DNA from: Gammaproteobacteria bacterium
Lineage (GTDB): Bacteria; Pseudomonadota; Gammaproteobacteria; Xanthomonadales; SZUA-36
Direction of reading: 5' to 3'
DNA: 64,000 nt
NCBI GenBank assembly: GCA_024279945.1
Contig: JAJRRA010000072.1
Coordinates: 62,001-126,000, forward strand
This document shows, piece after piece, positions 9,776 to 51,012 of the stretch (the first letter of the stretch is position 1; each line of letters starts with the position of its first letter). Below the pieces are notes generated by a model. The model worked only from the letters and a program-made list of their open reading frames with translations, was not told the DNA's origin and did not search any database. The translations under genes and the position numbers were made by a program.

Positions 9776-10654
9776 ATGAAACCCGTCATTCAGGTCATCA
9801 TCGTCAACTACAATGCCGGTGAGGTGCTTGGACGCTGTGTTCAGTCGGTACTTTCTGCCGGAGAAAAAACCAATATCACACTGATCGACAATGCTTCTAC
9901 GGATGGCAGCATCGAAGCGGTTCAGAGCATTTTTGGTCAATTGGAGAATGTTGCTATACGCTGCAATGACGAAAATATTGGTTTTTCCAGGGCAGTCAAT
10001 GCTGCAGCCTCAATGGGCGATGAGGAACTCCTGCTGATTCTGAATCCGGACTGTGAGTTGCTGCAAGGGGCGTTGGAGCATTTGAAACAGGCGCTGGATC
10101 TGGACCCGCTTGCCGCATTATCTGGCCCAACAGTTGTTGACCGGACCGGCACAGTGCAAAGAGGCACTTTGCGCCATTTTCCGGACCCGTGGAATTCACT
10201 GATGACTTTGACCGGTTTGTGGCGCCTGGGCCGCTGGTTTCCAGTCTTCAAAGGTGTGAACCGGCATCAAAACGGATTGCCCCACAGCAATACGGCTGCT
10301 GAGGCAGTTTCGGGCGCATGTATGCTGGTACGGCGCAAGGCATTTGAAGATGCTGGCCGTATGGATGAGGCCTATGGCCTGCATTGTGAGGATCTGGACC
10401 TGATGTATCGTCTGCAGCAGCAGGGCAATCATTGCATTTATGTGCCTGCCGCCCGGGTGTTTCACCAGCAGGGACTGTCTTCAAGCAGCCGGCCATTCTG
10501 GGTGCACCGTCAGAAACACCTGGGCATGCAGCGGTTTTTCCTTAAATTCCAGGCTGGGCGCTATCCTTTCCCGTTCCGCTGGCTGATCGTTGCAGGAATC
10601 TGGTTGCGTTACTTCCTGACCCTTCCGCTGGTATTGATTCAACAACGAACGTGA
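9776..10654 (+). CDS. Glycosyltransferase family 2 (rhamnosyltransferase-like)
   Basis: A 292-residue GT-A protein: VIIVNYNAG at the N-terminus, LIDNASTDGS, GFSRAVNAA, and LILNPDCEL as the metal-binding region, then SGACMLVRRKAFEDAG and EDLDLMYRLQQQG. This is the WbbL/rhamnosyltransferase pattern. A hydrophobic C-terminal segment with FRWLIVAGIWLRYFLTLPLVL may tether it to the inner membrane. ATG9776 is the first start that leaves the domain intact and follows the methyltransferase by 16 bp. The next gene overlaps its stop by 4 bp (GTGA), so the cluster is translationally coupled here. Confidence 0.88.
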   Translation: MKPVIQVIIVNYNAGEVLGRCVQSVLSAGEKTNITLIDNASTDGSIEAVQSIFGQLENVAIRCNDENIGFSRAVNAAASMGDEELLLILNPDCELLQGALEHLKQALDLDPLAALSGPTVVDRTGTVQRGTLRHFPDPWNSLMTLTGLWRLGRWFPVFKGVNRHQNGLPHSNTAAEAVSGACMLVRRKAFEDAGRMDEAYGLHCEDLDLMYRLQQQGNHCIYVPAARVFHQQGLSSSSRPFWVHRQKHLGMQRFFLKFQAGRYPFPFRWLIVAGIWLRYFLTLPLVLIQQRT

Positions 10655-11580
10655 ATCCCAAACCGTCCACTGTGCTGTTAACCGGGGCCAGTAGCCAACT
10701 GGGTGTTTTTCTCATTCCCCGTCTGCTTGCGGCAGGTTTCAAAGTGATTGCGCTCAGCCGACAGGCCAGCGGAGTTGCCGCCGGCCCGGATGAGCAACCG
10801 CTGTGGCAACTTCCCGAGGTGTTTGGAATCGGCGGGGCCGTGGAAGAATCCGGCCTGTCGGCACAGGTGACCATGTTGATCTCCTGCGGGCCTGTTGAGC
10901 TTGCCAGGCAAGCAATCGCTGTATGCCCACGACTGGAACGCGTGGTGATCTTCAGCACCAGCAGTGTGTTCAGTAAGGCGGCATCTCCGGACCCGTCAGA
11001 AAACAGGCAGATCGCGGATATTCTTGCCCAGGAAACACAATTGAAATCGCTGTGTTCAGAGCGTGGCCTGGCCCTGGCGGTTTTTCGACCGACTTTGATC
11101 TATGGCTGCGGCCTGGATCAGAATATCAGCCTGTTGGCCGTGTGGATTCGGCGTCTGGGATGGCTGCCTGTTGCCGGTCGGGCTTCAGGTTTGCGGCAAC
11201 CGGTACACGCGGATGACCTGGCGGGGCTTGCTGTTAAGGCATTACTCACCGACCAGGCAGTGAACCTGGACAGCCCGGCCTGCGGTGGCAGTACGCTTAC
11301 TTACCGGCAAATGGTCGAATTGATTTTTGATGCCCTTGATAAGCCAAGGCGAATATTCGGCCTGCCGCCCTACGTGATGATGATCCTGGTGAGCCTGGCA
11401 GGCGTGTTGCCGCCCTTGCGTGGAGTTAACAGGCAGATGGTGCATCGTCAGAATATTGACCTGGTATTTGATGATTCAGCCCTGAAAGACTGCCTGGAAT
11501 ACCGGCCGCGGCCGTTCAGGCCATCGGCAGACGATTTCTCTATTTCGATTGAATTGGAGAAATTCAGGCAGGTTCGTTGA
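10651..11580 (+). CDS. NAD-dependent epimerase/dehydratase family protein
   Basis: An extended short-chain dehydrogenase. The Rossmann glycine motif is TGASSQLG (residues 11-18). FSTSSVFSK follows, in the strand that normally leads to the catalytic Ser, then FRPTLIYGCG, the family's conserved RP..YG block. The usual YxxxK pair is not obvious and may be altered. Nucleotide-sugar epimerases and dehydratases are common in O-antigen loci, which fits its place as the last gene of the glycan cluster, but the substrate is unknown. GTG10651 overlaps the preceding glycosyltransferase. The gene ends 40 bp from the convergent ettA. Confidence 0.82.
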   Translation: MNPKPSTVLLTGASSQLGVFLIPRLLAAGFKVIALSRQASGVAAGPDEQPLWQLPEVFGIGGAVEESGLSAQVTMLISCGPVELARQAIAVCPRLERVVIFSTSSVFSKAASPDPSENRQIADILAQETQLKSLCSERGLALAVFRPTLIYGCGLDQNISLLAVWIRRLGWLPVAGRASGLRQPVHADDLAGLAVKALLTDQAVNLDSPACGGSTLTYRQMVELIFDALDKPRRIFGLPPYVMMILVSLAGVLPPLRGVNRQMVHRQNIDLVFDDSALKDCLEYRPRPFRPSADDFSISIELEKFRQVR

Positions 11581-14710: not shown

Positions 14711-15217
14711 ATGTGGTGCCCGTTCTGCAATCATGAGAATACACGCGTGGTAGATTCCCGCCTCACCGGGGATGGTATGCAGATTCGCCGGCGGCGCCAG
14801 TGTGAATCCTGCAGTTTGCGTTTTAATACTTACGAGGCGCCTGAGCTTAAAGCACCCCGCATCATCAAGTCCGATGGTACGCGCGAAGCATTCTCAGAAG
14901 CCAAATTACGTGACGGTATGCTGCGCGCGCTCGAGAAACGGCCCGTAGAGACCCGTGATGTCGAACGGACCATTCGTTCGTTGTTACGTGAGATATGCAG
15001 TGTTGAGGATGTAGAGATCCCCAGTTCTCTGCTCGGCGAGTGGGTCATGCGCGAACTAAGCAAGCTCGATCAGGTTGCGTATGTGCGTTTCGCGTCCGTG
15101 TACCGGCGGTTCGACGAAGTGAAACAATTCCTGGATGTGATCGAGCGCCTGGAGCAGGATGCGTTGGGGGATGGCGACCAACGGCAGATTTCCCTGTTGG
15201 GGCCAAAGCACAAGTGA
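14711..15217 (+). CDS. nrdR: Transcriptional repressor NrdR
   Basis: The repressor of ribonucleotide reductase operons. The N-terminal zinc ribbon has CPFC (Cys3, Cys6) and CESC (Cys31, Cys34) with the arginine-rich RRRRQ between. The ATP-cone domain occupies about residues 49-140 (RIIKSDGTREAFSEAKL). It senses ATP/dATP and binds paired NrdR boxes before nrd genes, none of which are in this window. The order glyA-nrdR-ribD is common in gammaproteobacteria. Its stop overlaps the GTG start of ribD by 4 bp. Length 168 residues; the family is about 150-180. Confidence 0.96.
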   Translation: MWCPFCNHENTRVVDSRLTGDGMQIRRRRQCESCSLRFNTYEAPELKAPRIIKSDGTREAFSEAKLRDGMLRALEKRPVETRDVERTIRSLLREICSVEDVEIPSSLLGEWVMRELSKLDQVAYVRFASVYRRFDEVKQFLDVIERLEQDALGDGDQRQISLLGPKHK

Positions 15218-16358
15218 GTTTCTCAGGTTTCGATCACCAGTGTATGGCGTTGGCTTTGAAGTTAGCTGCAAAAAGCCTGCTCAGTCCCCACCCCAATCCC
15301 CGGGTTGCTTGTGTCATTGGCGCCGGGCAGAACATCCTGGGCAGGGGTTGGCATGAATTTGCCGGCGGACCCCACGCAGAAATTGTCGCTCTGCGGGATG
15401 CACACGAGGATGTAAAGGCGCAACGGCTTATATTACGCTGGAACCCTGCAGTCATCATGGCCGGACTCCTCCCTGTACCGATGCGCTGCTGGATGCAGGT
15501 ATTTCCCGTGTCGTAGTGGCCTCGACAGATCCCAATCCGCAAGTGAACGGTCAGGGTCTGGAAAAACTCCGCCATGCCGGTGTAACCGTGGAATCTGGTT
15601 TGATGGCAGATGAGGCGGAAGCCCTGAATTCAGGTTTTTTCATGCGCATGCGGCACGGTCGCCCCTGGGTAAGGGTGAAAACGGCGATCAGCCTGGATGG
15701 AAGGACTGCACTGGCTAATGGTGACAGCAAGTGGATCAGTAGTGAGGCTTCACGCCGTGACGTGCAAAAATGGAGGGCGTGTTCTTCAGCTATTTTGACC
15801 GGTATCGGGACGGTGCTGGCTGATGATCCCCAGATGAATGTCAGGCTGGAAAAGGGTCAGCATGAGCTGGCAGGGCAAGCCCCGCTCAGGCAACCCCTGC
15901 GCATTATTGCCGACAGCCTTTGGCGAATTCCAGCACAAAGCCGGATACTGGATGACCCTGCAACGGCGATCATCGCCGGGACCGGTCGGGCGGCGGTACC
16001 GCCCGAACTGGAAGCAACTGGCGTTCGCTGCATTTCACTGCCGGCAAGATCGGGTAGCCTGGATCTGCCTGCCTTGCTTTCCCGCCTGGCTGAGATGGAA
16101 GTTAATGAAATTCAGGTTGAGGCCGGCGCCCGTTTGTGTGGCAGCCTGTTGCACGACAGGATGGTTGATGAAGTATTGATATATCAGGCTCCGCTCCTGC
16201 TCGGGGAGGGGGGCGCCGGACCTTTTAACTTCGGGCCGCTTGAATCCATGGACCAGCGAACGCATTTAAAGCTGCTGGAAACCAGGCGCCTCGGAAACGA
16301 TTGGAGGCTTCGCCTCAAGCCGGAATACAGGAAGGATGATGTTTACAGGAATAGTTAG
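15214..16358 (+). CDS. ribD: Riboflavin biosynthesis deaminase/reductase RibD, interrupted by a frameshift
   Basis: A bifunctional enzyme of riboflavin synthesis: an N-terminal zinc deaminase and a C-terminal reductase acting on the pyrimidine products of GTP cyclohydrolase II. From GTG15214 (overlapping nrdR by 4 bp) it reads the deaminase with HPNPRVACVI and the zinc ligand motif PHAEIVAL, then loses frame at about 15415-15419. Restoring one G in the GG at 15417-15418 recovers the missing block, with LEPCSHHGRTPPC (the other zinc ligands), TDALLDAGISRVV and then DPNPQVNGQGL. The reductase domain then runs intact to 16358. The repaired protein would be about 381 residues, the family norm. 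The intact second half and the short G run point to a sequence error or a very recent mutation. Confidence 0.9.
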
Positions 16359-16980
16359 CGCAAAGGGTATGGTGAAGGATAAAATCACCATTGAGGGCGA
16401 TAGCCGGCTCAGGATAGAATGCGGCAGCCTGGATATGCATGGCTGCCGGGAAGGTGACAGCATAGCAGTTTCAGGCGTGTGCCTTACTATGCTGGAACCC
16501 GGCGCCTCCGAATTTCTGGCCGATGTTTCGAAAGAAACCCTGGACCTGACTACTCTGGGAAATTTACAGTCAGGTTCGCCCGTGAACCTCGAACTGGCGC
16601 TTTCACTGGAGGATCGTTTGGGTGGGCATATGGTCAGTGGTCACGTGGATGGATTGGGGCGATTATTATCCCGCCGGGAAGACGCCAGGTCGGAGCGATT
16701 CGAATTTGAAGTCCCCGCAGAACTCGCCCGTTACGTGGCTAAAAAGGGATCGATAACCATTGATGGAGTCAGTCTCACGGTCAATGATGTGGTCGGTATG
16801 CGGTTTGGGGTTTGCCTGATACCGCATACGCTGGAAGTGACGACACTGGGAAGGCTGAGTCCTGGTGATGCGGTGAATATTGAAGTCGATCTGATCGCCC
16901 GGTATCTCGAGCGTTTGCTTGATCCGGAATTGCAAACAACAGAACAGTCCGGCCTGACAGGGTCCGGTCAGGAGTGTTAA
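16339..16980 (+). CDS. ribE: Riboflavin synthase (alpha subunit)
   Basis: Joins two 6,7-dimethyl-8-ribityllumazine molecules by dismutation to yield riboflavin. The protein consists of two homologous lumazine-binding barrels: [10 protein letters not shown] starts the first, and [12 protein letters not shown] starts the second near residue 95, with SLTVNDV later. It has 213 residues, as expected. ATG16339 gives the canonical MFTGIV start with AGGAAGG ending three bases upstream; the preceding ATG16336 is too close to that site. It overlaps the end of ribD by 20 bp. Also named ribC in some species. Confidence 0.96.
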
Positions 16981-18111
16981 GTGGCGCTGAATTCAATTAA
17001 CGAATTATTGGAGGACATCAGGGACGGCCGTATGGTCGTTATGATGGACGATGAGGATCGGGAGAATGAAGGCGACCTGGTGATGGCGGCTTCCAAGGTG
17101 CGCCCGGAAGATATCAATTTTATGGCCCGGTTCGGACGCGGATTGATTTGCCTGCCGCTGACCAGAGAGCGTTGCCACCAGTTGCGCCTGCCGTTAATGG
17201 TCAACCAGAACCAGGCCCGTTTCGCAACCAACTTTACGGTTTCGGTCGAAGCGGCAGAAGGCATAACAACGGGTATTTCCGCCTACGACCGGGCGCACAC
17301 GATCCGTACGGCGGTGGCCCCCGATGCAGGTCCGGCAGATATTTCACAACCTGGGCATGTATTTCCCCTGATGGCCCAGCCAGGCGGTGTGCTGGCGCGT
17401 GCCGGCCACACTGAGGCGAGTGTCGATATGGCTTTGCTGGCGGGCCTGGAGCCGGCTGCAGTACTGGTTGAAATACTCAATGAAGACGGCAGCATGGCGC
17501 GCAGGCCTCAGCTGGAGGAATTTGCCCGGAAGCATGAGCTGAAGATCGGTACAATCGCTGACCTGATCCATTACCGGATGGAAAATGAAAAGACCATCCA
17601 ACACGTTTCCCGCCATGATGTGGAGACGGACTTTGGGCCATTCGCCCTGCATACTTATCGCGACACCATTGAAGAACGCCTCCACCTGGTTTTGATGCGC
17701 GGTACAATCAATCCGCAAGAGCCGTTCCTGGTCCGGGTGCACGTGCAGAACCCCCTGAGTGACGTGCTGTCAATCCAACGGGCTGATTTCGGATTGCCGC
17801 TACGCACTGCGATGGCGGAGGTTGCTGCAGAGGATAGCGGCATGGTGTTGGTACTTGGCGGACACCGGGATGACGATGAGTTGTTGCGCCAGATTCAGCA
17901 GGTGCCGGAACCCTCCATAGTGGCCAGCGGCGATGACCGGCGTTCCAGGGAACTGAGAACCTACGGCATTGGCGCACAGATCATAGCGGATATGGGGGTG
18001 CGCAAGATGCGTGTTCTCAGCGCGCCCTGGAAGCTGACCGGCCTGGCAGGTTTCGGCCTGGAGGTAATTGAATACACCGAATCACCGGGCGGAAGCGGGG
18101 ATGCATCATGA
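16981..18111 (+). CDS. ribBX: 3,4-dihydroxy-2-butanone-4-phosphate synthase with degenerate GTP cyclohydrolase II domain (RibBX type)
   Basis: The N-terminal domain (residues 1-205) is a full Rib[16 protein letters not shown] for metal and substrate binding and [14 protein letters not shown] later. It converts ribulose-5-phosphate to the four-carbon unit for lumazine. The C-terminal domain resembles RibA but has lost the zinc site: where RibA has an RCDCG block, this protein has RADFG near residue 270, and the first zinc Cys is also missing in NPLSDVLS. This matches the RibBX variant described in Proteobacteria, whose second domain lacks cyclohydrolase activity. A separate RibA must then be encoded elsewhere. 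GTG16981 starts directly after the ribE stop; its end overlaps ribH by 4 bp. Confidence 0.93.
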
Positions 18112-29411: not shown

Positions 29412-30757
29412 TCCAATTGCATCTCAGCGATCTTGCCAGGGTGCTGAATTGCGCGACTCCCGCTGCTGATGTGCTGGTCGACAGCATTGTCTCGGATAGC
29501 CGCCAGGTACATTACGGCTCTTTGTTCGCTGCCCTTCCGGGCAGCCAGGTGGATGGCCATGATTTTGCCTCCACTGCCGTGGAGATGGGTGCGGTTGCCT
29601 TACTGGTCAGCCGGCGTTTGGATATGGATGTTCCGCAGTTGGTGGTCAAAGATGTGCTGGTCGCGCTGGGCTTGCTGGCCCGGCTGGTTCGCGACCGGAT
29701 TAATCCACGCGTGATTGGTATCACCGGCAGCAACGGCAAGACCACCGTCAAGGAAATGCTGAGCAGTATTCTTCGGTTGCAGGGCAAGGTTCTTGCTACC
29801 CGGGGCAATTTCAACAACGAACTTGGCGTGCCTCTCAGCCTGTTTGAACTTGAACCGGACCACGCTTATGCGGTGCTGGAACTAGGGGCCAGTAAAAGCG
29901 GTGATATTGCCTACCTCGCCGCTATTGCCGGGCCGGAGGTGGCGATGGTCACCAATGTAGGTCCGGCTCACCTGCAGGGTTTTGGTGACGAGCAGGGTGT
30001 CGCTGAAGCCAAGGGTGAGATCTTTGCCGACTTGCCCCCATCCGGCTGGGCGATCATTAACGGGGATGAAGCCTGGTCATCTGCCTGGCAGAAAATCAGT
30101 ACGGCTGATCATAGCCTGACATTCGGAGTACGGGCAGGCAACGATGTGCGCCTTGAGCGGCAGAATGGTCAGGTACAGATCGTGGCGCCACAGGGTAGTT
30201 TTGACCTTGAGTTACCACTGCCGGGTGAACACAACCTGCTCAATGCTGCTGCTGCTGCGGCTGCGGCCATTGCTCTGGATATTCCACTGGACATGATTCA
30301 GCGTGGTCTGGCGGCGGTAAAACCGGTTCCGGGAAGACTCAATCGCTTGCGCTCAGCTTCAGGCTGTATCGTAATCGACGACACCTACAACGCCAATCCG
30401 GCCTCTTTGTATTCCGCTTTACAGGTTTTGGCGAATATGCAGGGTACCGCCTGGCTGGTGCTTGGTGATATGAAGGAACTGGGTTCTGGCAGTCGAAAAT
30501 TGCATGCGGAAGTCGGTGACGCCGCCCGCTCGCTGGGCGTCAGCCGGGTGTTCGCTACCGGCGAAATGTCGCGGTTTACGGTAGATGCCTTTGGGATAGG
30601 CGCCCGCCATTTTCCGGATCGTGAGTCTTTGATCGAAGCCCTGATTCCGGAATTAGGGCCGGGTATCAACTGCCTGGTCAAGGGATCACGCTCAATGGGA
30701 ATGGAGGCCGTTGTCGAAGCAATCGGGCAGGACCATGAAATGCGGGAGGCCAGCTGA
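29408..30757 (+). CDS. murF: UDP-MurNAc-tripeptide--D-Ala-D-Ala ligase MurF
   Basis: Adds D-Ala-D-Ala to complete the UDP-MurNAc-pentapeptide. ATP loop [14 protein letters not shown], then [25 protein letters not shown], and [12 protein letters not shown] with VLGDMKELG in the C-terminal domain. At 449 residues it is typical. The D-Ala-D-Ala substrate is made by Ddl, encoded later in the same cluster. Its stop shares one base with the mraY start. Confidence 0.97.
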
Positions 30758-31839
30758 TGTTGTACTGGCTATTTCAGCAACTGGCGGAGATCAATCCGGG
30801 GTTCAACGTTTTTGCGTACATTACCCTGAGATCCATCCTCGGTGCATTGACAGCCTTGCTGGTTTCTTTGCTGCTGGGCCCCTGGTTTATCCGCCGCCTG
30901 GTGCGCAAGCAGGTGGGACAGCCGATTCGCAAACTGGGTCCTGAAAGCCATTTTTCGAAGGCAGGCACACCAACCATGGGCGGGGCGCTCATTCTATTCT
31001 CCATTGTACTGGCAACACTGCTGTGGGCGGATTTGTCTAACCGCTATGTCTGGGTAGTGTTACTGGTCACTTTGATTTTCGGCTTGATCGGCTGGGTAGA
31101 CGACTACAAGAAGCTGGTGCTTCAGGACTCCGCTGGTTTGCCGGGAAGGTGGAAATACCTGGCCCAGTCTGTTGCCGGACTGGCAGCAGCCTGGTTTCTG
31201 TGGTCCAGCGCTGATGTGCCGGCAGCGACTGAGTTGATCGTTCCTTTCTTCAAGGGGGTCGCGATTCCACTCGGTGTTTTTTACATTGTGACCACCTATT
31301 TCATGATCGTGGGATTTTCCAACGCGGTTAATCTCACCGATGGCCTTGACGGATTGGCGATCATGCCTTCGGTGTTCGTCGCAGCCGCACTGGGGATTTT
31401 TGCTTATGTTGCAGGTAACTCGGTGTTTTCGGATTACCTCGCGATGCCCTACATTCCCGGTGCAGGTGAACTGGCCATTTTTTGCGGCGCACTGGCTGGT
31501 GCAGGATTGGGGTTTCTGTGGTTCAACACCTACCCGGCACAGATTTTTATGGGCGATATTGGGGCACTGGCCGTTGGCGCGGCCCTGGGAGTTATTGCAG
31601 TGATCGTGCGCCAGGAACTGGTTTTTATCCTGATGGCCGGCGTGTTCGTAATGGAAACGGTTTCCGTCATTTTGCAGGTTGCCTCGTTCAAGCTGACCGG
31701 GAAGCGTATTTTCCGCATGGCGCCAATCCATCATCATTTTGAACTCAAAGGCTGGCCTGAACCCAGAGTGATCGTCCGCTTCTGGATTATTTCCGTCATT
31801 CTCGTGCTGGCCGGGCTGGCGACACTGAAAATCAGGTGA
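30757..31839 (+). CDS. mraY: Phospho-MurNAc-pentapeptide transferase MraY
   Basis: A polytopic inner-membrane enzyme with about ten helices that transfers phospho-MurNAc-pentapeptide to undecaprenyl phosphate, giving lipid I. Recognisable are [19 protein letters not shown] with the catalytic Asp pair, [14 protein letters not shown], and [15 protein letters not shown] near the C-terminus. Length 360, identical to E. coli. Unusually, ftsW follows after only 10 bp; murD, which normally stands here, is absent. Confidence 0.97.
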
Positions 31840-31849
31840 GCAGATCAGA

Positions 31850-33064
31850 ATGAAAAAAACCGGGACAACACGGCAGGGGATGACGCGACAGGCGCGGCCT
31901 TCGGGCTCGGTTGAAGTGGCTATCCAGCCGGACTCATGGGTGCTGATACCGGCCTTGCTGTTGCTCTCTATCGGTATTGTTATGGTGGGCTCTGCATCCA
32001 TCGCGATCGCAGAAAGCCAGGGAGTAGGAAGTAGTTATTACCTGTTGCGGCACCTGATCTACATTTTTCTCGGCGTGATGCTGGCGATGTCGTTCCGTGT
32101 CATTCCCATCGCCTTCCTTGAACGTATCAGTCGGCCCATGCTGCTTTTATCAGCGGTTGCTTTGCTGGTGGTCCTGGTTCCGGGCATCGGCTACACCGTC
32201 AATGGCAGTACGCGTTGGATTCGTCTTGGTTTTGTCAACTGCCAGGTTGTTGAGGCGGTCAAGTTGACGGTTATTATTTATCTGGCGGGTTACCTGGCGC
32301 GCAAGGCCGGACGGGTTCAGACACGGTTTTTCGATACTCTCAAGCCACTGATGTTTGCCGGTTTTCTGTCCGTTATCCTGTTGTTGCAACCGGACATGGG
32401 CAGCGCTGCGGTTATCACGGCAATTGTTGTCGGGATGGTTTGGCTGGCCGGCGCCGCCTGGCGCCACATATTCGTTTTGGGCCTCCTGACCCTGCCTGTT
32501 TTCGGTTTTGCAGCGATGGAACCCTATCGCCTGCGGCGGATTGTCAGCTTCATGGACCCGTGGGCGGATCCTTTTGCCAGTGGCTTTCAACTGACCCAGG
32601 CCTTGATTGCAGTGGGTCGTGGCGAGTTATTCGGAGTGGGACTGGGCGCCAGCATCCAGAAATTGTTTTATCTGCCCGAAGCTCACACTGATTTTATTTT
32701 CGCCGTGCTGGCTGAGGAATTCGGCCTGGGTGGGGTCATTGTCGTGCTCGCGCTATTTTTGTTGCTGGTCACACGCATCATGGTGATTGGTGTCATGGCG
32801 CACCGTCTGGGCAAACCATTCTCCGGTTTCCTCGCTTACGGCGTCGGTATCTGGATCGGTTTGCAGGCCATGGTCAGCGTAGGGGTTAATCTCGGCGTGC
32901 TTCCCACCAAGGGTTTGACTCTGCCATTAATCAGTTCCGGTGGCAGCAGTATGCTGATGACATTGCTGGGGCTGGGAATGGTGCTGCGGATCAAGTACGA
33001 ATTGGATCGGAGCAACGGCGTGCAGCACTTGCGCAAAAAAGTAATGCGGGGCGCCAGCACATGA
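31850..33064 (+). CDS. ftsW: Septal peptidoglycan glycosyltransferase FtsW
   Basis: A SEDS-family lipid II polymerase working with FtsI. A 25-residue cytoplasmic tail, then about ten transmembrane segments. SEDS landmarks include GIGYTVNGSTRWI, KPLMFAGF, LQPDMGSAAV, EAHTDFIFAVLAEEFG carrying the essential Asp, and PLISSGGSSM near the end. 404 residues. The 4-bp ATGA overlap with murG indicates coupling. Confidence 0.96.
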   Translation: MKKTGTTRQGMTRQARPSGSVEVAIQPDSWVLIPALLLLSIGIVMVGSASIAIAESQGVGSSYYLLRHLIYIFLGVMLAMSFRVIPIAFLERISRPMLLLSAVALLVVLVPGIGYTVNGSTRWIRLGFVNCQVVEAVKLTVIIYLAGYLARKAGRVQTRFFDTLKPLMFAGFLSVILLLQPDMGSAAVITAIVVGMVWLAGAAWRHIFVLGLLTLPVFGFAAMEPYRLRRIVSFMDPWADPFASGFQLTQALIAVGRGELFGVGLGASIQKLFYLPEAHTDFIFAVLAEEFGLGGVIVVLALFLLLVTRIMVIGVMAHRLGKPFSGFLAYGVGIWIGLQAMVSVGVNLGVLPTKGLTLPLISSGGSSMLMTLLGLGMVLRIKYELDRSNGVQHLRKKVMRGAST

Positions 33065-34149
33065 GAAGATGCAAAAACGGCGTGTTGATCATGGCCGGTG
33101 GAACCGGCGGGCATATTTTTCCCGGCCTTGCAGTTGCCGAGAGTCTGCGTTGCCATGGTGTTGATGTACGTTGGCTGGGCGCCAGTGGCGCCATGGAATG
33201 TCAGCGGGTTCCCGCAGCGGGAATTGAACTCGACACCGTCGATATTACCGGCCTCAGGGGTAAGGGCGCCGGACGCTGGCTGATTATGCCGTGGCGGCTG
33301 GCGCGGGCTGTTTACCAGGCATTTCGCATCCTCGGCACGAAGCGTCCGGCTTGTGCGATCAGCTTCGGCGGTTATGCAGCGGGTCCCGGCGGACTGGCAG
33401 CGAGGCTGCGTGGGGTGCCGCTGTTGGTTCACGAGCAGAATCGGGTTCCGGGGATGACCAATCGTGCACTATCCCGGATGGCAAAAGTTGTGCTGCAGGC
33501 CTTTCCGGGAACTTGGGGAGAAAAACTGCACGCCCACACTTGTGGTAACCCGGTCCGGGCACCGCTTGTCTCATTGGAATCGCCCAGGCAGCGTTTGTCC
33601 GGCAGATCGGGCGCCAAACGCCTGCTGATCACCGGTGGCAGCCAGGGTGCCCGCTTCCTGAATCAGATGATTCCCTCTGCGCTGGCATTATTGCCTCTGA
33701 ATGAGCGGCCTGAAGTGCGCCATCAGGCCGGCAAAGGTGGGGTGGAAGAGACTCGCGAGCGCTATCGTGAAGCAGGAATTGAGGCAGAAGTCTGTGCGTT
33801 TATCGATGATATGGCGGCTGCGTACGGCTGGGCGGATCTGGTGGTCTGCCGTTCAGGCGCATTAACCGTATCTGAACTGGCCGCGGCCGGAGTCGCGGCG
33901 GTTCTGTTGCCATTTCCCTTTGCCGTGGATGATCACCAGTCCCGTAATGCTGAGTTCCTGGTCGAGGCCGGCGCCGCACAGATGTTGCCTGAGGCAGATT
34001 GCAGCCCGGAATCCATGGCCGGTGTTCTGGGACAATTGTTGCGCGACCGGGATCAATTGATGGCGATGGCCTGTGCTGCACGGTCGGTGGCTGTTCCGGA
34101 CTCTGCCGAGCGGGTGGCTGCCCTGTGTATGGAGTTCATGCCGGCATGA
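33061..34149 (+). CDS. murG: Lipid II synthase MurG (GlcNAc transferase)
   Basis: A peripheral GT-B glycosyltransferase adding GlcNAc to lipid I. N-terminal MAGGTGGHIFPGLAVAE, then SFGGYAAGPGGLAA and LVHEQNRVPGMTNR; the C-terminal domain has ITGGSQGARFLNQM and RSGALTVSELAAAG for UDP-GlcNAc binding. At 362 residues it is normal. It overlaps both ftsW and murC by 4 bp. Confidence 0.97.
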   Translation: MRRCKNGVLIMAGGTGGHIFPGLAVAESLRCHGVDVRWLGASGAMECQRVPAAGIELDTVDITGLRGKGAGRWLIMPWRLARAVYQAFRILGTKRPACAISFGGYAAGPGGLAARLRGVPLLVHEQNRVPGMTNRALSRMAKVVLQAFPGTWGEKLHAHTCGNPVRAPLVSLESPRQRLSGRSGAKRLLITGGSQGARFLNQMIPSALALLPLNERPEVRHQAGKGGVEETRERYREAGIEAEVCAFIDDMAAAYGWADLVVCRSGALTVSELAAAGVAAVLLPFPFAVDDHQSRNAEFLVEAGAAQMLPEADCSPESMAGVLGQLLRDRDQLMAMACAARSVAVPDSAERVAALCMEFMPA

Positions 34150-38611: not shown

Positions 38612-39786
38612 ATGTTTGAATTAGTGGAAAACTACACGCCCAGTGCGAATATCAAAGTGATTGGCGTTGGGGGAGGAGGCGGAAACGCCGTTGCACAAAT
38701 GATTGATGCCAGTATCGAAGGCGTGGAATTTATTGCGGCAAACACGGATGCGCAGGCACTGCGCCAGTTCAAGGGCAAGACGATCCTGCAGATTGGCTCC
38801 AGCGTTACCAAGGGGCTGGGGGCAGGCGCAAATCCGGAAGTGGGTCGACAGGCAGCCCTGGAAGACCGTGATCACGTGATTGAAATGCTGGCGGGTGCGG
38901 ACATGGTGTTCATTACAGCAGGCATGGGTGGCGGTACGGGCACCGGTGCGGCGCCGGTAATAGCACAGGCGGCAAAGGAGCAGGGCATCCTTACCGTGGC
39001 GGTGGTTACCAAACCGTTCCATTTCGAAGCCAGGCGGCGCATGGCGATTGCGGAAAGGGAATCGAAGAACTGGCTGCGCATGTAGATTCCCTGATTACGA
39101 TTCCCAACTCCAGACTGGCGGAAGTCCTCGGTGGTGAGACTCTGCTGTTGAATGCCTTCAAAGCTGCCAATGATGTTCTGCAAGGCGCGGTTCAGGGAAT
39201 TGCAGAGTTAATCACCCGGCCCGGCCTGATCAATGTTGATTTCGCTGATGTCCGTACCGTTATGTCTGAAATGGGAATGGCGATGATGGGCGCTGGCCAG
39301 TCATCCGGTGATGACCGGGCGATCATGGCAGCACAGGCCGCCATCGGCAGTCCCTTGCTCGAAGATGTCAACCTGTCTGGCGCCTGTGGCATTCTGGTGA
39401 ACATTACCGCCGGTACCAACCTGACCATGAAGGAGTTTGAAGAAGTCGGCAGCACCGTTTCCGATCTGGCTTCAGAAGATGCCACCGTTGTCATGGGTAC
39501 CGTGATTGATCCCGATATGGGAGATGACTTGCGTGTAACCGTCGTGGCAACCGGCCTGGGCGAACCGGTATGTAGCAGCAGTTTCCAGGAAAAGCCCATC
39601 CGCCTGGTAGCCAACGGCATATCGGAGCCTGCAGACACAGACTTGTCTGAGCAGGAAGCCGTTGAGGGATTTAATCGGGAGCGCGATCAGCGCATTGCCG
39701 ATGTCGGGAGCAAAGACCTGTTTGAACGGCAGAAAGATATCGATTACCTGGATATTCCGTCGTTTCTGCGCACTCAGGCAGATTGA
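38612..39786 (+). CDS. ftsZ: Cell division GTPase FtsZ, interrupted by a frameshift
   Basis: The tubulin-like ring-forming GTPase. From ATG38612 (GAGAGGAG upstream) it reads [13 protein letters not shown] and the GTP signature [15 protein letters not shown], then runs out of frame after MAIAERE and stops at 39083-39085. Adding one G to the GGG at 39057-39059 restores [18 protein letters not shown] and joins the rest ([35 protein letters not shown]) to the normal end [14 protein letters not shown] at 39786. The repaired protein is 391 residues, normal size. FtsZ is essential, so a sequence error is the most likely cause; two truncated proteins would not function. Confidence 0.95.
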
Positions 39787-45377: not shown

Positions 45378-46142
45378 GTGAAACTTAGCATCATAACAGT
45401 ACACTTGAATGACATCCCCGGCTGCAAAACGACTCTTGCATCGCTGCGCCAATATTTGCCGGACAAACGAATTGAATGGATTGTTGTCGACGGCAAAAGT
45501 GAGTTGCATGGTGTCGATGTTGGTGTGTTTGAAGAAATAGCGACGCTGGCGGATCATTTTGTCTCAGAGCCTGATAATGGCATTTACGATGCCATGAACA
45601 AGGGTACCCGCCTGGCCACCGGTGCATACGTTTTGTTTTTGAACGCCGGTGATGAATTACACCCTGATTTTACTCTCCAGCGTCTGACTCAACTGCTTGA
45701 TGCGACAGCTCCTGCTATGATCTGGGGTAATTGTCTGGTGCACTATAAGAGCGGCTCGATCATTCAGATTAAAACCCGAACACCCGCATGGGCATGGTAT
45801 GGAATGCCGGCCTGTCACCAGGCAATGTTTTTTCGCCGCGATATTTTGGGTGAAAAACCATATGACACGCGTTACGTTATTGGTGCTGATTATGATCTGG
45901 TTTGCCGCTTGATCAGCCAGGAAGAACAAGTAGTACATCTTGATTCACTGGTTTCAATTTTCCACCGTGGTGGCTTGAGTGACGTCAGTCGTGCTGCATC
46001 ACTTGATGAAGAAAATGAGATTCGCCTGAAGTACTTCCGGGTTCCGGCTATTGCAGGTGGCATCGTAAAAAGATTCAAAAGTTTGAATGCCCAAATATCC
46101 CGGCTTGCATGGTTGCGCCGATTGTGGCGAAGATGGATATAG
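45378..46142 (+). CDS. Glycosyltransferase family 2 (WcaE/PglI-like)
   Basis: A 254-residue GT-A enzyme. LSIITVHLNDIPGCKTTLASL, IEWIVVDGKS, then SEPDNGIYDAMNKGTRLATG and LFLNAGDEL, where the aspartate region binds metal and donor; ACHQAMFFRRDIL and GADYDLVCRLI follow. The SEPDNGIYDAMNKG block is typical of the colanic-acid WcaE group. GTG45378 with GGGGT just upstream is the start. It is the first gene of a glycan island between secA and coaE. The donor sugar is unknown. Confidence 0.87.
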   Translation: MKLSIITVHLNDIPGCKTTLASLRQYLPDKRIEWIVVDGKSELHGVDVGVFEEIATLADHFVSEPDNGIYDAMNKGTRLATGAYVLFLNAGDELHPDFTLQRLTQLLDATAPAMIWGNCLVHYKSGSIIQIKTRTPAWAWYGMPACHQAMFFRRDILGEKPYDTRYVIGADYDLVCRLISQEEQVVHLDSLVSIFHRGGLSDVSRAASLDEENEIRLKYFRVPAIAGGIVKRFKSLNAQISRLAWLRRLWRRWI

Positions 46143-46173
46143 TAAGGCATTGACGTAATCAACAGAAACGGTA

Positions 46174-47082
46174 TCAGCTACTACCTTTTAGGAGAGTTTG
46201 GATATTCCGGCGTATGGTTGTTAGCGGGGACTCGTAGCGCAATTCCTGAACGGGGTTAATTACCAGGCGAAATTTCATGTTTGAATCGGCCATTGACCTG
46301 TGGAGCGCAACATGCTCGCACAAGACCGGAACTTCTGGGTCGCTATTTGTCAATACCTTATATCGCTGATTTATTAACGATCGATACTTGTAAATAGCGA
46401 GTCCTCCAAAAGCCGACGAGGCTGAAATAAGCACATTATCCCGGATTTGTTTCCGTAATTTTTTCTGGTTTGAACGAATATACCGCAGACTTTGGATGCC
46501 CCCGGGAAACCCCTCCTCAGGCTCATATGCAAAGGCATCCCAGTAAACAGTCGGGCTGAACGGGGCTCTTAATGTGTACCGGAGTCCGGAAGAAGTTGCA
46601 CAGTCCCATTTGTTACACCAGCCGAAGCTGTTGGCGATACCCGGGATACTGAAATTCATAATGTCCAGGTCAACGATAATGACAAAATCAGCCGGCTGCT
46701 GTTGTTGGAGTTCCTTCAGGTATATGTTGCGGGCAAATGCAATACGTGAAATACGCGAATGGTCGAAATCACCAGGGAAGTCGCCTTCAATGCGTTGATG
46801 TTCCGGATCTGGGCGGCTGAATATGATGGGGATGACATTGCAGTTGCTGGCTGCCCAGGATGAAATAATTCTAGCCGTATGGTCCCGGCTGTTATTTTCG
46901 ACTACGATAATTTTGTAACTCCTGAACTTTGCAGCCAGGTCTTCGAGCCTGGGGATCAGCCTGCTCAACTGCGGGGCACAGTCCCTTGCGATACCGCACA
47001 GAATGACCGAACTCTCTGAAATCAGATCAAAACCCTGCTGGGTTCGTTCGTTCGCCTTAGCCTGATTCACGTGCATTCTCAT
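46174..47082 (-). CDS. Glycosyltransferase-like protein (GT69/CAP59-type appearance)
   Basis: Features seen: SSVILCGIARDCAPQLSRL, YKIIVVENNSRDHTARII, FARNIYLKEL, then VIIVDLDIMNFSIPGIANS as probable metal-binding motif, and SAFGGLAIYKYRSL later. The VENNSxD plus VDLD pattern recalls cryptococcal CAP59-type mannosyltransferases, a tentative match without any search. It is transcribed opposite to its neighbours and has visibly lower GC than core genes (estimated by eye). The start is uncertain: ATG47082 is used here, though TTG47151 and ATG47076 are in frame and none has a clear ribosome site. Confidence 0.7.
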   Translation of the reverse strand: MRMHVNQAKANERTQQGFDLISESSVILCGIARDCAPQLSRLIPRLEDLAAKFRSYKIIVVENNSRDHTARIISSWAASNCNVIPIIFSRPDPEHQRIEGDFPGDFDHSRISRIAFARNIYLKELQQQQPADFVIIVDLDIMNFSIPGIANSFGWCNKWDCATSSGLRYTLRAPFSPTVYWDAFAYEPEEGFPGGIQSLRYIRSNQKKLRKQIRDNVLISASSAFGGLAIYKYRSLINQRYKVLTNSDPEVPVLCEHVALHRSMADSNMKFRLVINPVQELRYESPLTTIRRNIQTLLKGSS

Positions 47083-47276
47083 TTGTATATTCAAAAACCG
47101 GCAATTTTTGCTTTGGAAAAACCTGGAGTTCCGTGCATCATATATCCACAAAACCCATAAAGGGTACTATGAATCAGAGGTTCCTTAAGTAACACGCTGT
47201 GATCCAGCGACCTTCACTTGCCCGGCATGACGCAAACAAGATTGGACATTCTTGAGAAATTGACGCAGAACATATA

Positions 47277-48062
47277 ATGACCAGCTGCTTGAAAACTACT
47301 CGAATTTTTGCTGCCAATATCAATGTGGGTCAACGACGGGAATTGCGCACGCAGTTGATGAATGTTGTAAGAGAGGGTACAAAATCCATATTTTTTTGCA
47401 ATGTTCACATGCTGATGCTGGCGCAGAAAGATGATGATCTGGTTGCTGCGATGAAGGCTGCGGATTTCATTGTTCCGGATGGCGTTCCGATAGCATGGCT
47501 GCAACGACGTCTGGGCACTGGCGGCGCCGCTGTGCTCAGAGGGTATGAGGCGGTGAATATCCTTTGCGCCCAGGCGGCGGCAACCGGGAAGCCGGTAGGG
47601 TTCCTGGGTTCGACAGAAGCAGTATTGGAGGCACTGTCGGAAAATCTCAGACAACAGCATCAAGGTCTGGAAGTGGGTTATTTACATGCGCCTCCGCTGA
47701 TGAGTGACCAATTTGAAGTCGATTCATATCTGGTGAAGGAGATTAATTCACAGGACTTACATTGCCTGTTCATTGGACTGGGTTGTCCCAAACAGGAAAA
47801 ATGGATTGCCTGTTACAGTCCAAGACTGAACTGCAGTGTTCTGGCAGTGGGCGCTGCGTTTGATTGGATGTCAGGAGCGACTAAAAAACCACCCCGTTGG
47901 GTAGAACATATCGGTGGCGCCTGGTTTTTCCGGCTGCTGCAAGACCCGCGCAGGATGTGGCACAGATATCTGATTTACAATAGTTTGTTTGTGATTAAAA
48001 CGGTTAAACTATTACTTTGGGAGCGGCCACTTGCGTCGTGGCTTGGCGGAAAAACCAAATGA
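47277..48062 (+). CDS. WecG/TagA/CpsF family glycosyltransferase
   Basis: A 261-residue GT26 enzyme. Diagnostic blocks are FFCNVHMLMLAQKDD, AADFIVPDGVPIAWL, GKPVGFLGSTEAVLE, LFIGLGCPKQEKWI and AVGAAFDWMSGATKKPPRWV with ARWFFRLLQDPRR-type end (here GAWFFRLLQDPRRMW). Members transfer ManNAc(A), GlcNAc or similar sugars to an undecaprenyl-linked acceptor, the second step of a repeat unit. The ATG lies inside a CATATAATG string and has no clear Shine-Dalgarno. The 4-bp overlap with the next gene, which adds the first sugar, fits that pairing. Confidence 0.93.
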   Translation: MTSCLKTTRIFAANINVGQRRELRTQLMNVVREGTKSIFFCNVHMLMLAQKDDDLVAAMKAADFIVPDGVPIAWLQRRLGTGGAAVLRGYEAVNILCAQAAATGKPVGFLGSTEAVLEALSENLRQQHQGLEVGYLHAPPLMSDQFEVDSYLVKEINSQDLHCLFIGLGCPKQEKWIACYSPRLNCSVLAVGAAFDWMSGATKKPPRWVEHIGGAWFFRLLQDPRRMWHRYLIYNSLFVIKTVKLLLWERPLASWLGGKTK

Positions 48063-49396
48063 CTCGCCAGGCTAATGTACTACTGATTATCCTGGTAAGC
48101 TTCCTGCTGGCTGCCCTGTTGCGTTTCGGCTACACCCCACTGCCCCAGCACTACCTGATTGCCCTCTTGCTAACCCTGGTCCTGTCCTCGATTATCCTGC
48201 CGGCTACAGGCGCGTACCGAAGCGAGTTTGAATGGGCCGTAATGCGGCGCTTGCGTCGTTTGATCGCTGGTTGGGCGGTGGTTGTGCTGGTGCTGATCAG
48301 CATTGCAGCAATGTTGAAGGCCACGGACTACTACTCCCGCATCTGGTTTGGTCTGTGGATATTGCTTGCCAGCTTTGGTTTGATGCTGGTGACGCTGGTT
48401 TCTCACGCGGCCGCGATTCGCGAGCGAAACAAGAACCGGCGAAGCCGGAAAGTTGTGCTGATTGGTTCGGGACAGGCTGCGGCTCGAGTCGAAGAACGTA
48501 TTGAGTCTGACCCCTCCTCTGACATGGAACTGGTGGCGCGGTTTGGCGAACCGTGGTCGGAAGCAGTTGTTTTTCCGGTCTCAGAACTAGCTGAGTTTGT
48601 ACAGGAAAATCATATCCATGAAGTCTGGATCGCTGCGCCCTGGGAAGATAAAACCCTGCTCGAAAATAGCCTTGAAGAACTCAAAGAGTTAGTGGTTGAC
48701 GTCAATGTGGTGCCGGATTTGCACCAGTATCGCCTGCTCAATCAGGGCATCAGCGAATGGAGTGGTTTGCCGGTGATTAACCTGGCCGGCACACCGATGA
48801 CTGACGCTGAGAGGCGCTTGAAAGACTTGTTTGATCGCCTCGGAGCCTTTTTCTTGATCGTATTACTTTTGCCGCTGTTGCTGCTTCTGGCGGCGTTGAT
48901 CCGTCTGACCAGCAAGGGGCCTGCACTGTTTCGCCAGAAACGGCACGGTGTGGGTGGGGAGTTTATCGAGATTCTGAAATTTCGCAGCATGACTTTGCAC
49001 GCAGAGCCTGAAGGGCAGGTCACGCAGGCTACCAGCACCGATGCCCGGATAACGACCATGGGTCGTTTTCTGCGTAAAACCAGCCTGGATGAATTGCCGC
49101 AGTTATTCAATGTCCTGAAAGGTGAGATGTCCCTGGTCGGACCAAGACCTCATGCGATCGAGCATAATGAGTTGTATAAATCACGCATTCCCCGGTACAT
49201 GCTGAGGCACAAGGTAAAGCCTGGAATTACCGGTTGGGCTCAGGTCAATGGTTTTCGGGGTCTGACGGACACCCCGGAAAAAATGGCCATGCGCATTGAG
49301 TATGACCTGTGGTACATAAAAAACTGGTCACTTTGGCTGGATTTGAAGATATTGTTGATGACTCCGTTTGTGATGATTCACCGTAATGCTTTATAA
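48059..49396 (+). CDS. Undecaprenyl-phosphate sugar-1-phosphate transferase (WcaJ/WbaP-like)
   Basis: A polyprenyl glycosylphosphotransferase of 445 residues starting at ATG48059 (overlap with the WecG-type gene). About four transmembrane helices in the first 120 residues, then a Rossmann-like CoA-binding type domain (KVVLIGSGQAAARVEERI), another hydrophobic segment at about residues 260-285, and the catalytic bacterial sugar transferase domain: KGPALFRQKRHGVGG, ILKFRSMT, RKTSLDELPQLFNVL, MSLVGPRPH and KPGITGWAQVNGFRG. It starts glycan assembly by loading the first sugar on undecaprenyl phosphate. No flippase or polymerase accompanies it here. Confidence 0.95.
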   Translation: MTRQANVLLIILVSFLLAALLRFGYTPLPQHYLIALLLTLVLSSIILPATGAYRSEFEWAVMRRLRRLIAGWAVVVLVLISIAAMLKATDYYSRIWFGLWILLASFGLMLVTLVSHAAAIRERNKNRRSRKVVLIGSGQAAARVEERIESDPSSDMELVARFGEPWSEAVVFPVSELAEFVQENHIHEVWIAAPWEDKTLLENSLEELKELVVDVNVVPDLHQYRLLNQGISEWSGLPVINLAGTPMTDAERRLKDLFDRLGAFFLIVLLLPLLLLLAALIRLTSKGPALFRQKRHGVGGEFIEILKFRSMTLHAEPEGQVTQATSTDARITTMGRFLRKTSLDELPQLFNVLKGEMSLVGPRPHAIEHNELYKSRIPRYMLRHKVKPGITGWAQVNGFRGLTDTPEKMAMRIEYDLWYIKNWSLWLDLKILLMTPFVMIHRNAL

Positions 49397-49491: not shown

Positions 49492-50118
49492 TTAAATTTT
49501 TTGCTGGAGTTTTCGGGCCAGGGCACTGTACTTGCGGTACAGTTTGTCTACCTGTGCCTCGAGCTGCTCCAGGCTGCCGCTGTTGTCCAGGGTGTCATCT
49601 GCCAGCATCAAGCGTTGCTGACGGTTGATCTGGGCATCCAGAATGGTCTGCGCCTGTGTGTGAGTGATGTTATCCCGAGCCATGACCCTTTCTATCTGAA
49701 CAGACTCTTCAACATCTACCACCAGTACCCGGTTGATCCATGAAAACAGCGATGTCTCGGCTAAAAGCGGAACGACCAGGATACACCAGGGCTGTTTGAT
49801 CTGCGCGATACGCTGATCGACTTCAGCAGCGATTGCCGGATGCAGGATGCCCTCCAGGCGGGTTTTCAGTTGCGGATCCTGGAAGATGGCGTCGCGCATT
49901 TTTCTGCGCTGCAGGCGCCCCTCTGCGTCAAGATACTCCGGCCCGAAGATTTTGGCGATTCGCTACAGCGCGGGGCAGCCCGGTTCCACGATTTCATGCG
50001 CAATCCGGTCGGTATCAATGATGGCTACCCCCCGTTGTGCAAACAGGTCCGATACGGCTGTTTTGCCGGAAGCAATGCCGCCGGAGAGAACGACGACAAA
50101 GGGTTCAGAATCTGCCAT
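49492..50118 (-). CDS. coaE: Dephospho-CoA kinase, interrupted by an in-frame stop
   Basis: Final enzyme of coenzyme A synthesis. From ATG at 50118 it reads the P-loop [15 protein letters not shown], then [19 protein letters not shown], meets TAG at codon 52 (bases 49965-49963), and continues in the same frame with [38 protein letters not shown] and the normal end. Full length would be 208 residues, as in E. coli (206). A single C-to-T change (CAG to TAG) would explain it. Met at 49899 could start only a P-loop-less fragment. TAG ends other genes here, so recoding is unlikely. It is the last gene of the pilB-pilC-pilD-coaE operon. Confidence 0.9.
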
Positions 50119-50145: not shown

Positions 50146-51012
50146 TCAGCCGAACACGCCGGAGCGAGCGTACTGGTCAATGATTTGCTCACCCCAGATC
50201 AGCGCAATCCACCCGGCCGCCGCAATGAAGGGACCAAAGGGCATGGGAATGTCGCGTTTCATTTTTCCCATGCCCATGAGAATCAGGCCAAACAGTGCGC
50301 CAACCACGGAAGAAAGGAGAATGGTCAGCGGTAACATCTGCCAGCCCATCCAGGCGCCCAGTGCGGCCAGCAGCTTGAAATCACCGTAGCCCATACCTTC
50401 CTTGCCGGTCAGCAGGCGAAACAGGTGATAGATAGACCACAAGGCCAGGTAACCCACAATGGCGCCCATGACGCTGGAGGCCAGGTCTGTATGCACAGAC
50501 CAGAGATTCAGCGCGATACCGGCCCACAGCAGTGGCAGGGTCATATTATCCGGCAATAGCTGGTGGTCTGTATCGATCCCTGCCAGCGCGATCAGGAATG
50601 CAGTCAGGAGCAGGGCCGACAAGCCTTGCAACGTGGGTCCGAAATGCCAGATCGTTAGTGCAAATAAAATGGCCGTGGTGAGTTCAATCAGTGGGTAGCG
50701 CAGTGATATCGGAGCCTTGCAGGCAGAGCACTTGCCTCGCAACGCCAGGTAGCTGAGCACCGGGATGTTTTCAATTGCGCGAATGTGGTGGCCACATTTG
50801 GGGCACTTTGACCGTGCCAGGACGATACCGGGAGGCCGTTCCTTTTCATCCGGTTCGGTCTGCAGTAACTCGTGGCACTGGCAGCGCCAGTCATATTCCA
50901 GCAGGAGCGGCACCCTGAGGATCACGACATTCAGAAAACTGCCGATAATCAGACCGAAAATAAACACCCCTGCCAGGAGCAGGGGTGTGGATTCAAACAA
51001 GGTTTGTATCAT
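50146..51012 (-). CDS. pilD: Type IV prepilin peptidase/N-methyltransferase PilD
   Basis: An A24 aspartic peptidase of the inner membrane that cuts prepilin leaders and methylates the new N-terminal Phe. The N-terminal cytoplasmic domain has the zinc tetracysteine CPKCGHH plus CSACKAP. The catalytic Asp residues lie in LAGIDTDHQLLPD and GYGDFKLLAALGAW. About eight hydrophobic segments. 288 residues. It would process both pilins of this locus and also T2SS pseudopilins. In an operon after pilC. Confidence 0.96.
   Translation of the reverse strand: MIQTLFESTPLLLAGVFIFGLIIGSFLNVVILRVPLLLEYDWRCQCHELLQTEPDEKERPPGIVLARSKCPKCGHHIRAIENIPVLSYLALRGKCSACKAPISLRYPLIELTTAILFALTIWHFGPTLQGLSALLLTAFLIALAGIDTDHQLLPDNMTLPLLWAGIALNLWSVHTDLASSVMGAIVGYLALWSIYHLFRLLTGKEGMGYGDFKLLAALGAWMGWQMLPLTILLSSVVGALFGLILMGMGKMKRDIPMPFGPFIAAAGWIALIWGEQIIDQYARSGVFG

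Follow-up and report, generated by a model that had tools for sequence, protein, structure and literature searches.

Where a stop codon interrupts the gene for an essential bacterial enzyme, it has to be asked whether the stop belongs to the organism or to the sequence record. CoaE, the dephospho-CoA kinase, is such an essential enzyme, and its gene is interrupted by one TAG in the 64,000-nucleotide stretch of gammaproteobacterial DNA analysed here (the window). The genome to which the window belongs comprises 3.92 Mb in 91 contigs, a number suggesting that it was probably metagenome-assembled, and is rated 97% complete with 0.25% contamination. Single-base consensus errors occur in draft or metagenome-assembled genomes. 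We therefore consider the gene itself, its relatives, the possible routes by which its function might be rescued, and the state of other genes in the window and beyond.

The coaE frame and its neighbourhood

The frame opens with an ATG at 50118 and closes with a TAA at 49494-49492 on the minus strand, and its only internal stop is the TAG at 49965-49963, a single interruption of an otherwise clean frame, as the original prediction had it. By this one stop, at codon 52, the window sequence differs from CoaE dephospho-CoA kinases (PF01121, TIGR00152), whose frames are uninterrupted and which it resembles in possessing the full domain, the P-loop and the DTD motif. When the TAG is read through, the 208-residue product matches the Pfam CoaE family with 207.4 bits over residues 8-184 and the NCBIfam model with 184.8 bits, the whole domain scoring above the curated cut-off (65.55 for TIGR00152). 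At the 53 columns conserved in at least 90% of sequences the window protein deviates twice, and the 29 other sequences deviate 0-8 times; its best solved relative is 1vhl_A (E = 3e-51), which we take to be the E. coli enzyme. These family matches, together with 29 relatives that align through the codon, bear out the earlier assignment of both sides of the TAG to dephospho-CoA kinase. Since the coding signal runs on across it, the TAG is internal to one gene and is no boundary between two genes.

Both the P-loop (GGIASGKT) and the DTD, which we presume to play their usual roles as CoaE motifs, precede the TAG, and the first start codon beyond it is the ATG at 49899, codon 74 of the frame. The view that a protein restarted there cannot be a normal kinase, the Walker A motif lying ahead of the stop, is thus supported.

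Table 1 Coordinates of coaE, its internal stop, its upstream neighbour and the other split genes (window positions unless a contig is named).
Feature	Coordinates	Strand	Basis
coaE frame (dephospho-CoA kinase), one interruption	49492..50118	-	Sequence, Pfam/NCBIfam profiles, alignment of relatives
In-frame TAG, codon 52	49963..49965	-	Sequence; coding continuity on both sides
Longest start-to-stop ORF remaining after TAG, 135 aa, without P-loop	49492..49899	-	ORF list, Pfam
pilD, intact, upstream neighbour of coaE	50146..51012	-	Pfam/NCBIfam, relatives
ftsZ, sole copy found, split over two frames near 39055	38612..39786	+	Profiles, relatives, frame-switch scan
ribD, sole full copy found, split over two frames near 15410-15425	15214..16358	+	tblastn, family profile, frame-switch scan
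Phage portal gene, split over two frames, with matches to parts 2-153 and 153-321 of the profile	L127 10533-11731 (contig C46)	+	Pfam

Farther upstream of pilD lie pilC and pilB, and the order pilC-pilD-coaE was the same in all 8 relative stretches examined (in L101 coaE is cut by the contig end, and in L107 pilC is partial). On the other side, four exopolysaccharide-type genes at 45378-49396 (a GT2 gene, one with a weak CAP59-like match below the cut-off, a WecG-type and a WcaJ-type gene) lie between secA and coaE, which are tail-to-tail neighbours in relatives G007, G013, G003 and G015. In the sister genome, secA is followed by a second copy of its own tail, which is interrupted (L147 5330-5860, G001 contig C12). 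Elsewhere in the window (30757-33064) murD is absent between mraY and ftsW, an intact murD being present on contig C86, and in relative G007 the spacing suggests that it is likewise absent from this position.

Codon 52 among relatives and constraint on the frame

A search of 61 genomes returned coaE matches in 51, including the genome under study; of the 50 relatives, the 29 for which loci were available entered the alignment. All 29 align on either side of codon 52, with no gaps nearby. Ten different residues occupy the position (K 6, E 5, A 5, R 4, T 2, N 2, L 2, G 1, V 1, Q 1), which has entropy rank 16 of 198, so that position 52 of coaE is permissive. In the nearest relative, a sister genome whose protein is 77% identical, the codon is AAG (lysine), and the codons found in relatives at one step from TAG are AAG (4) and GAG (3). 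The original prediction had derived the TAG from CAG by one transition, an origin for which we find no support, CAG being absent at this position from all 29 aligned relatives and the sister having AAG.

Stops were flagged in only two members of the 61-genome set, the genome under study (TAG) and G043 (TAA). The latter was rejected as an internal stop, being the natural end of that gene, and none of the 50 other matches contains one. In a wider search of the order, coaE was matched in 272 of 299 genomes, and among the 150 matches listed (by hand count) none of the 149 from other genomes has an internal stop. Three distant loci with 29-38% identity, returned by a scan of the genome contigs for coaE, were left unused. 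Judged by titles and abstract openings, none of the papers brought up by a literature search concerns an internal stop in coaE.

We then consider whether the part of the gene beyond the TAG has decayed. Against the sister genome, dN/dS is 0.115 before the TAG and 0.204 after it, values that span the whole split between the two genomes and would be the same had the stop arisen yesterday. In a relative-rate test with six outgroups, one of little power, 5 changes after the TAG were assigned to the window and 6 to the sister (p = 1.0); the corresponding counts were 3 and 1 before the TAG, and 22 and 20 for pilC and pilD together. Unique residues after the TAG numbered 12 in the window and 6 in the sister (p = 0.24). 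The window branch of the coaE tree is the longer one (0.266 vs 0.128 with 30 sequences; 0.180 vs 0.133 with 8), which we rejected as a sign of decay because it is also the longer one for pilC (0.074 vs 0.043) and pilD (0.092 vs 0.073). Thus, within the low power of the relative-rate and unique-residue comparisons, no decay was detected after the TAG; coaE has no further lesion, and neither the relaxed constraint nor the additional damage typical of a pseudogene is seen. A very young lesion, a sequence error and a gene expressed by readthrough would all give this same picture.

The original prediction proposed searching the genome for another coaE and for an amber-suppressor tRNA, and both searches came back empty. 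The genome search found no second coaE and no archaeal-type dephospho-CoA kinase (PF04019), with about 3% of the genome possibly missing, so that coaE also lacks the second copy or analogue that could replace the function of a pseudogene. Since this is the sole coaE found, no PF04019 kinase accompanies it and coaD is intact, the coenzyme A pathway appears, from gene content, to be in use. No tRNA with a CTA (CUA) anticodon is present among the 42 found, a set that is incomplete, as Ile-GAT and Ala-TGC are also missing; the window itself has no tRNA gene, and its one Rfam match is RNase P. Release factor RF1 is intact (537.9 bits, no internal stop), and TAG terminates 144 of 737 coding-like ORFs. 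With no TAG-reading tRNA among the 42 either, the genetic code is standard and TAG is an ordinary stop in this genome. A reassignment of TAG to an amino acid, which would be marked by a rarity of terminal TAG and a lost or altered RF1, has nothing in its favour besides codon 52 of coaE itself, and we give it practically no credence.

Other broken genes in the window and scans for stops and frame breaks

Two further single-copy vital genes are broken in the same window, ftsZ and ribD. Residues ~1-149 of FtsZ are encoded in the frame of 38612 and the remainder in another, and blastn shows the window to be one base short at the break by comparison with each of 4 relatives (two of these alignments have further gaps elsewhere). 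The genome search found no other ftsZ, and 10.9 kb separate the break from the TAG in coaE. The change of frame sits at a short run of G. For ribD, each half of the family profile finds its match in a different frame, and tblastn gives two pieces offset by one base relative to the one relative that covers the break; a blastn comparison with one relative began past the break and is uninformative on this point. No other full ribD was found in the genome, where the only further family match is weak and partial and lies on another contig.

Nearly all bacteria have FtsZ as an essential protein, which cannot be supplied from outside, and RibD is essential in riboflavin makers; a cell alive with coaE, ftsZ and ribD all broken is not expected. 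Thus, while the original observation on coaE holds, it had missed the two broken genes in the same window, and these alter its meaning.

We extended the analysis by scanning for false stops and frame breaks. The stop scan collected stops flanked on each side by 40 or more open codons and retained those that had coding signal before and after the stop and lacked an early restart. Of 3,203 stops in 864 kb of this genome, 39 passed, four of them TAG, and the coaE TAG ranked second; in the first 464 kb it ranked first among the 19 that passed of 1,703. The position of this TAG within a continuous coding signal is more than chance. The scan recovered 741 of 2000 planted stops, a sensitivity of 37%. 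Eleven of the 38 other candidates were compared with Pfam: three were rejected as natural (FtsH/FolP neighbours, PurB/JmjC neighbours and the end of a DUF4426 gene), and eight matched no family, including the candidate ranked above coaE. This last one (L116 10101-11171, plus strand, contig C83) is a 357-codon frame of continuous coding signal with one TGA, and its matches in relatives are weak and mostly have stops of their own.

A frame-switch scan, made without relatives, yielded 205 switches, 14 of which lack a start codon near the switch in the new frame; the ftsZ and ribD breaks were recovered among these 14. On planted one-base deletions it recovered 62 of 300 by the no-start criterion and 218 of 300 by the switch alone. 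Pfam comparison of 5 of the other 12 switches revealed one split gene, encoding a phage portal protein; L079 and L121 were rejected as natural junctions, and L084 and L117 matched no family.

Gene integrity was compared with relatives at 48 distinct places in the window, of which 6 were flagged and three (ftsZ, ribD and coaE) have such lesions. The remaining flags, at 32488-34140, 16420-17607 and 10399-11544, were set aside, by coordinates only, as antisense or upstream-extended ORFs. The 24 places compared outside the window (29,061 bases) were free of frame splits and of verified stops; the two flags raised among them concern L112, which runs antisense over purB, and L113 5296-5634, a weak case. 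A stricter first version of this comparison missed ribD.

These results allow a rough expectation. Two indels were counted over the 50,371 window bases compared, or 4 in 100,000, and a random substitution creates a stop in 3.3% of cases; if substitutions are as frequent as indels, about 1 false stop is expected per 0.86 Mb, or about 0.7 when the 29,061 clean outside bases are pooled. One convincing case was observed in 0.864 Mb (at a scan sensitivity of 37%, with 11 of the 38 others compared with Pfam), matching the expectation of ~1 as far as the equal-rate assumption holds.

Weighing the explanations

Since ftsZ and ribD are also broken in the window, we consider the coaE TAG most likely to be a single wrong base in the draft consensus or assembly, and not new biology, with a probability of roughly 0.8. 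A wrong consensus base would have turned codon 52 into TAG, and the real coaE of the organism is probably an ordinary, intact kinase. The lesion resembles the single-base errors that enter the consensus of draft or metagenome-assembled genomes in being isolated, in showing no decay and in sharing the window with other broken single-copy vital genes. FtsZ being essential and not replaceable from outside, the break in the only ftsZ suggests that there the record is at fault, not the cell, and the same cause is thereby likely for coaE. From the assembled sequence we infer that sequence error is most likely the common cause of the three lesions. Against this, the coaE lesion is a substitution, unlike the frame changes of ftsZ and ribD, so that the type of error differs; the 24 places free of frame splits outside the window indicate that the error rate may be lower elsewhere, and the completeness and contamination values argue for an assembly of fair quality.

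That the only coaE contains a real amber codon, read at a low level by near-cognate tRNAs, is a less likely reading than sequence error, and an unlikely one overall. Enough full-length kinase might then be made, as codon 52 tolerates many residues, and the dN/dS values indicate a frame constrained on both sides of the stop, as far as values that a stop from yesterday would share can do so. PMC7918605 reports that in-frame stops in bacterial genes are widespread and many are under constraint or purifying selection. The coaE stop is like those cases in lying inside a constrained frame and unlike them in being seen in one genome only, that study having guarded against sequencing error by admitting only stops common to two or more genomes. 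Readthrough is reported in E. coli reporters in the order TGA > TAG > TAA, but at low levels for TAG, with means of 0.49, 0.80, 0.03 and 0.01% at 18, 25, 37 and 42 C (PMC11126739). No suppressor tRNA was found and RF1 is intact, and the breaks in ftsZ and ribD again point to error. Equally improbable is the bolder picture of a free-living bacterium with a true amber in its only coaE, living on low-level readthrough or on a suppressor tRNA from the unassembled part of the genome, with coenzyme A synthesis throttled by translation termination.

The absence of detectable decay would also be expected of a very young lesion, and a draft genome can mix strains; a real nonsense mutation in part of the population may have been caught in the consensus, its carriers being unfit or fed coenzyme A precursors by neighbours. 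We hold this to be improbable as well, as ftsZ and ribD would need a separate cause and the loss of FtsZ could not be made good from outside. Far less probable is a split CoaE, in which a P-loop peptide of 51 residues would assemble with a reinitiated C-terminal part into an active enzyme. The family is matched on both sides of the TAG, but codons 53-73 would go untranslated although relatives match there, the sole purine-rich stretch before the ATG at 49899 (AGAGGGG, found by eye) lies ~18 bases upstream, farther than usual, and no split coaE occurs among the relatives' matches listed.

Taken as sequence error, the finding means that the record shows three vital genes as broken within a single window, in a genome with a completeness rating of 97%, which calls for caution: without the reads, a lone stop in such a genome should not be taken for biology. 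Were the TAG real, coaE would offer a natural example of an essential enzyme whose production depends entirely on stop-codon readthrough.
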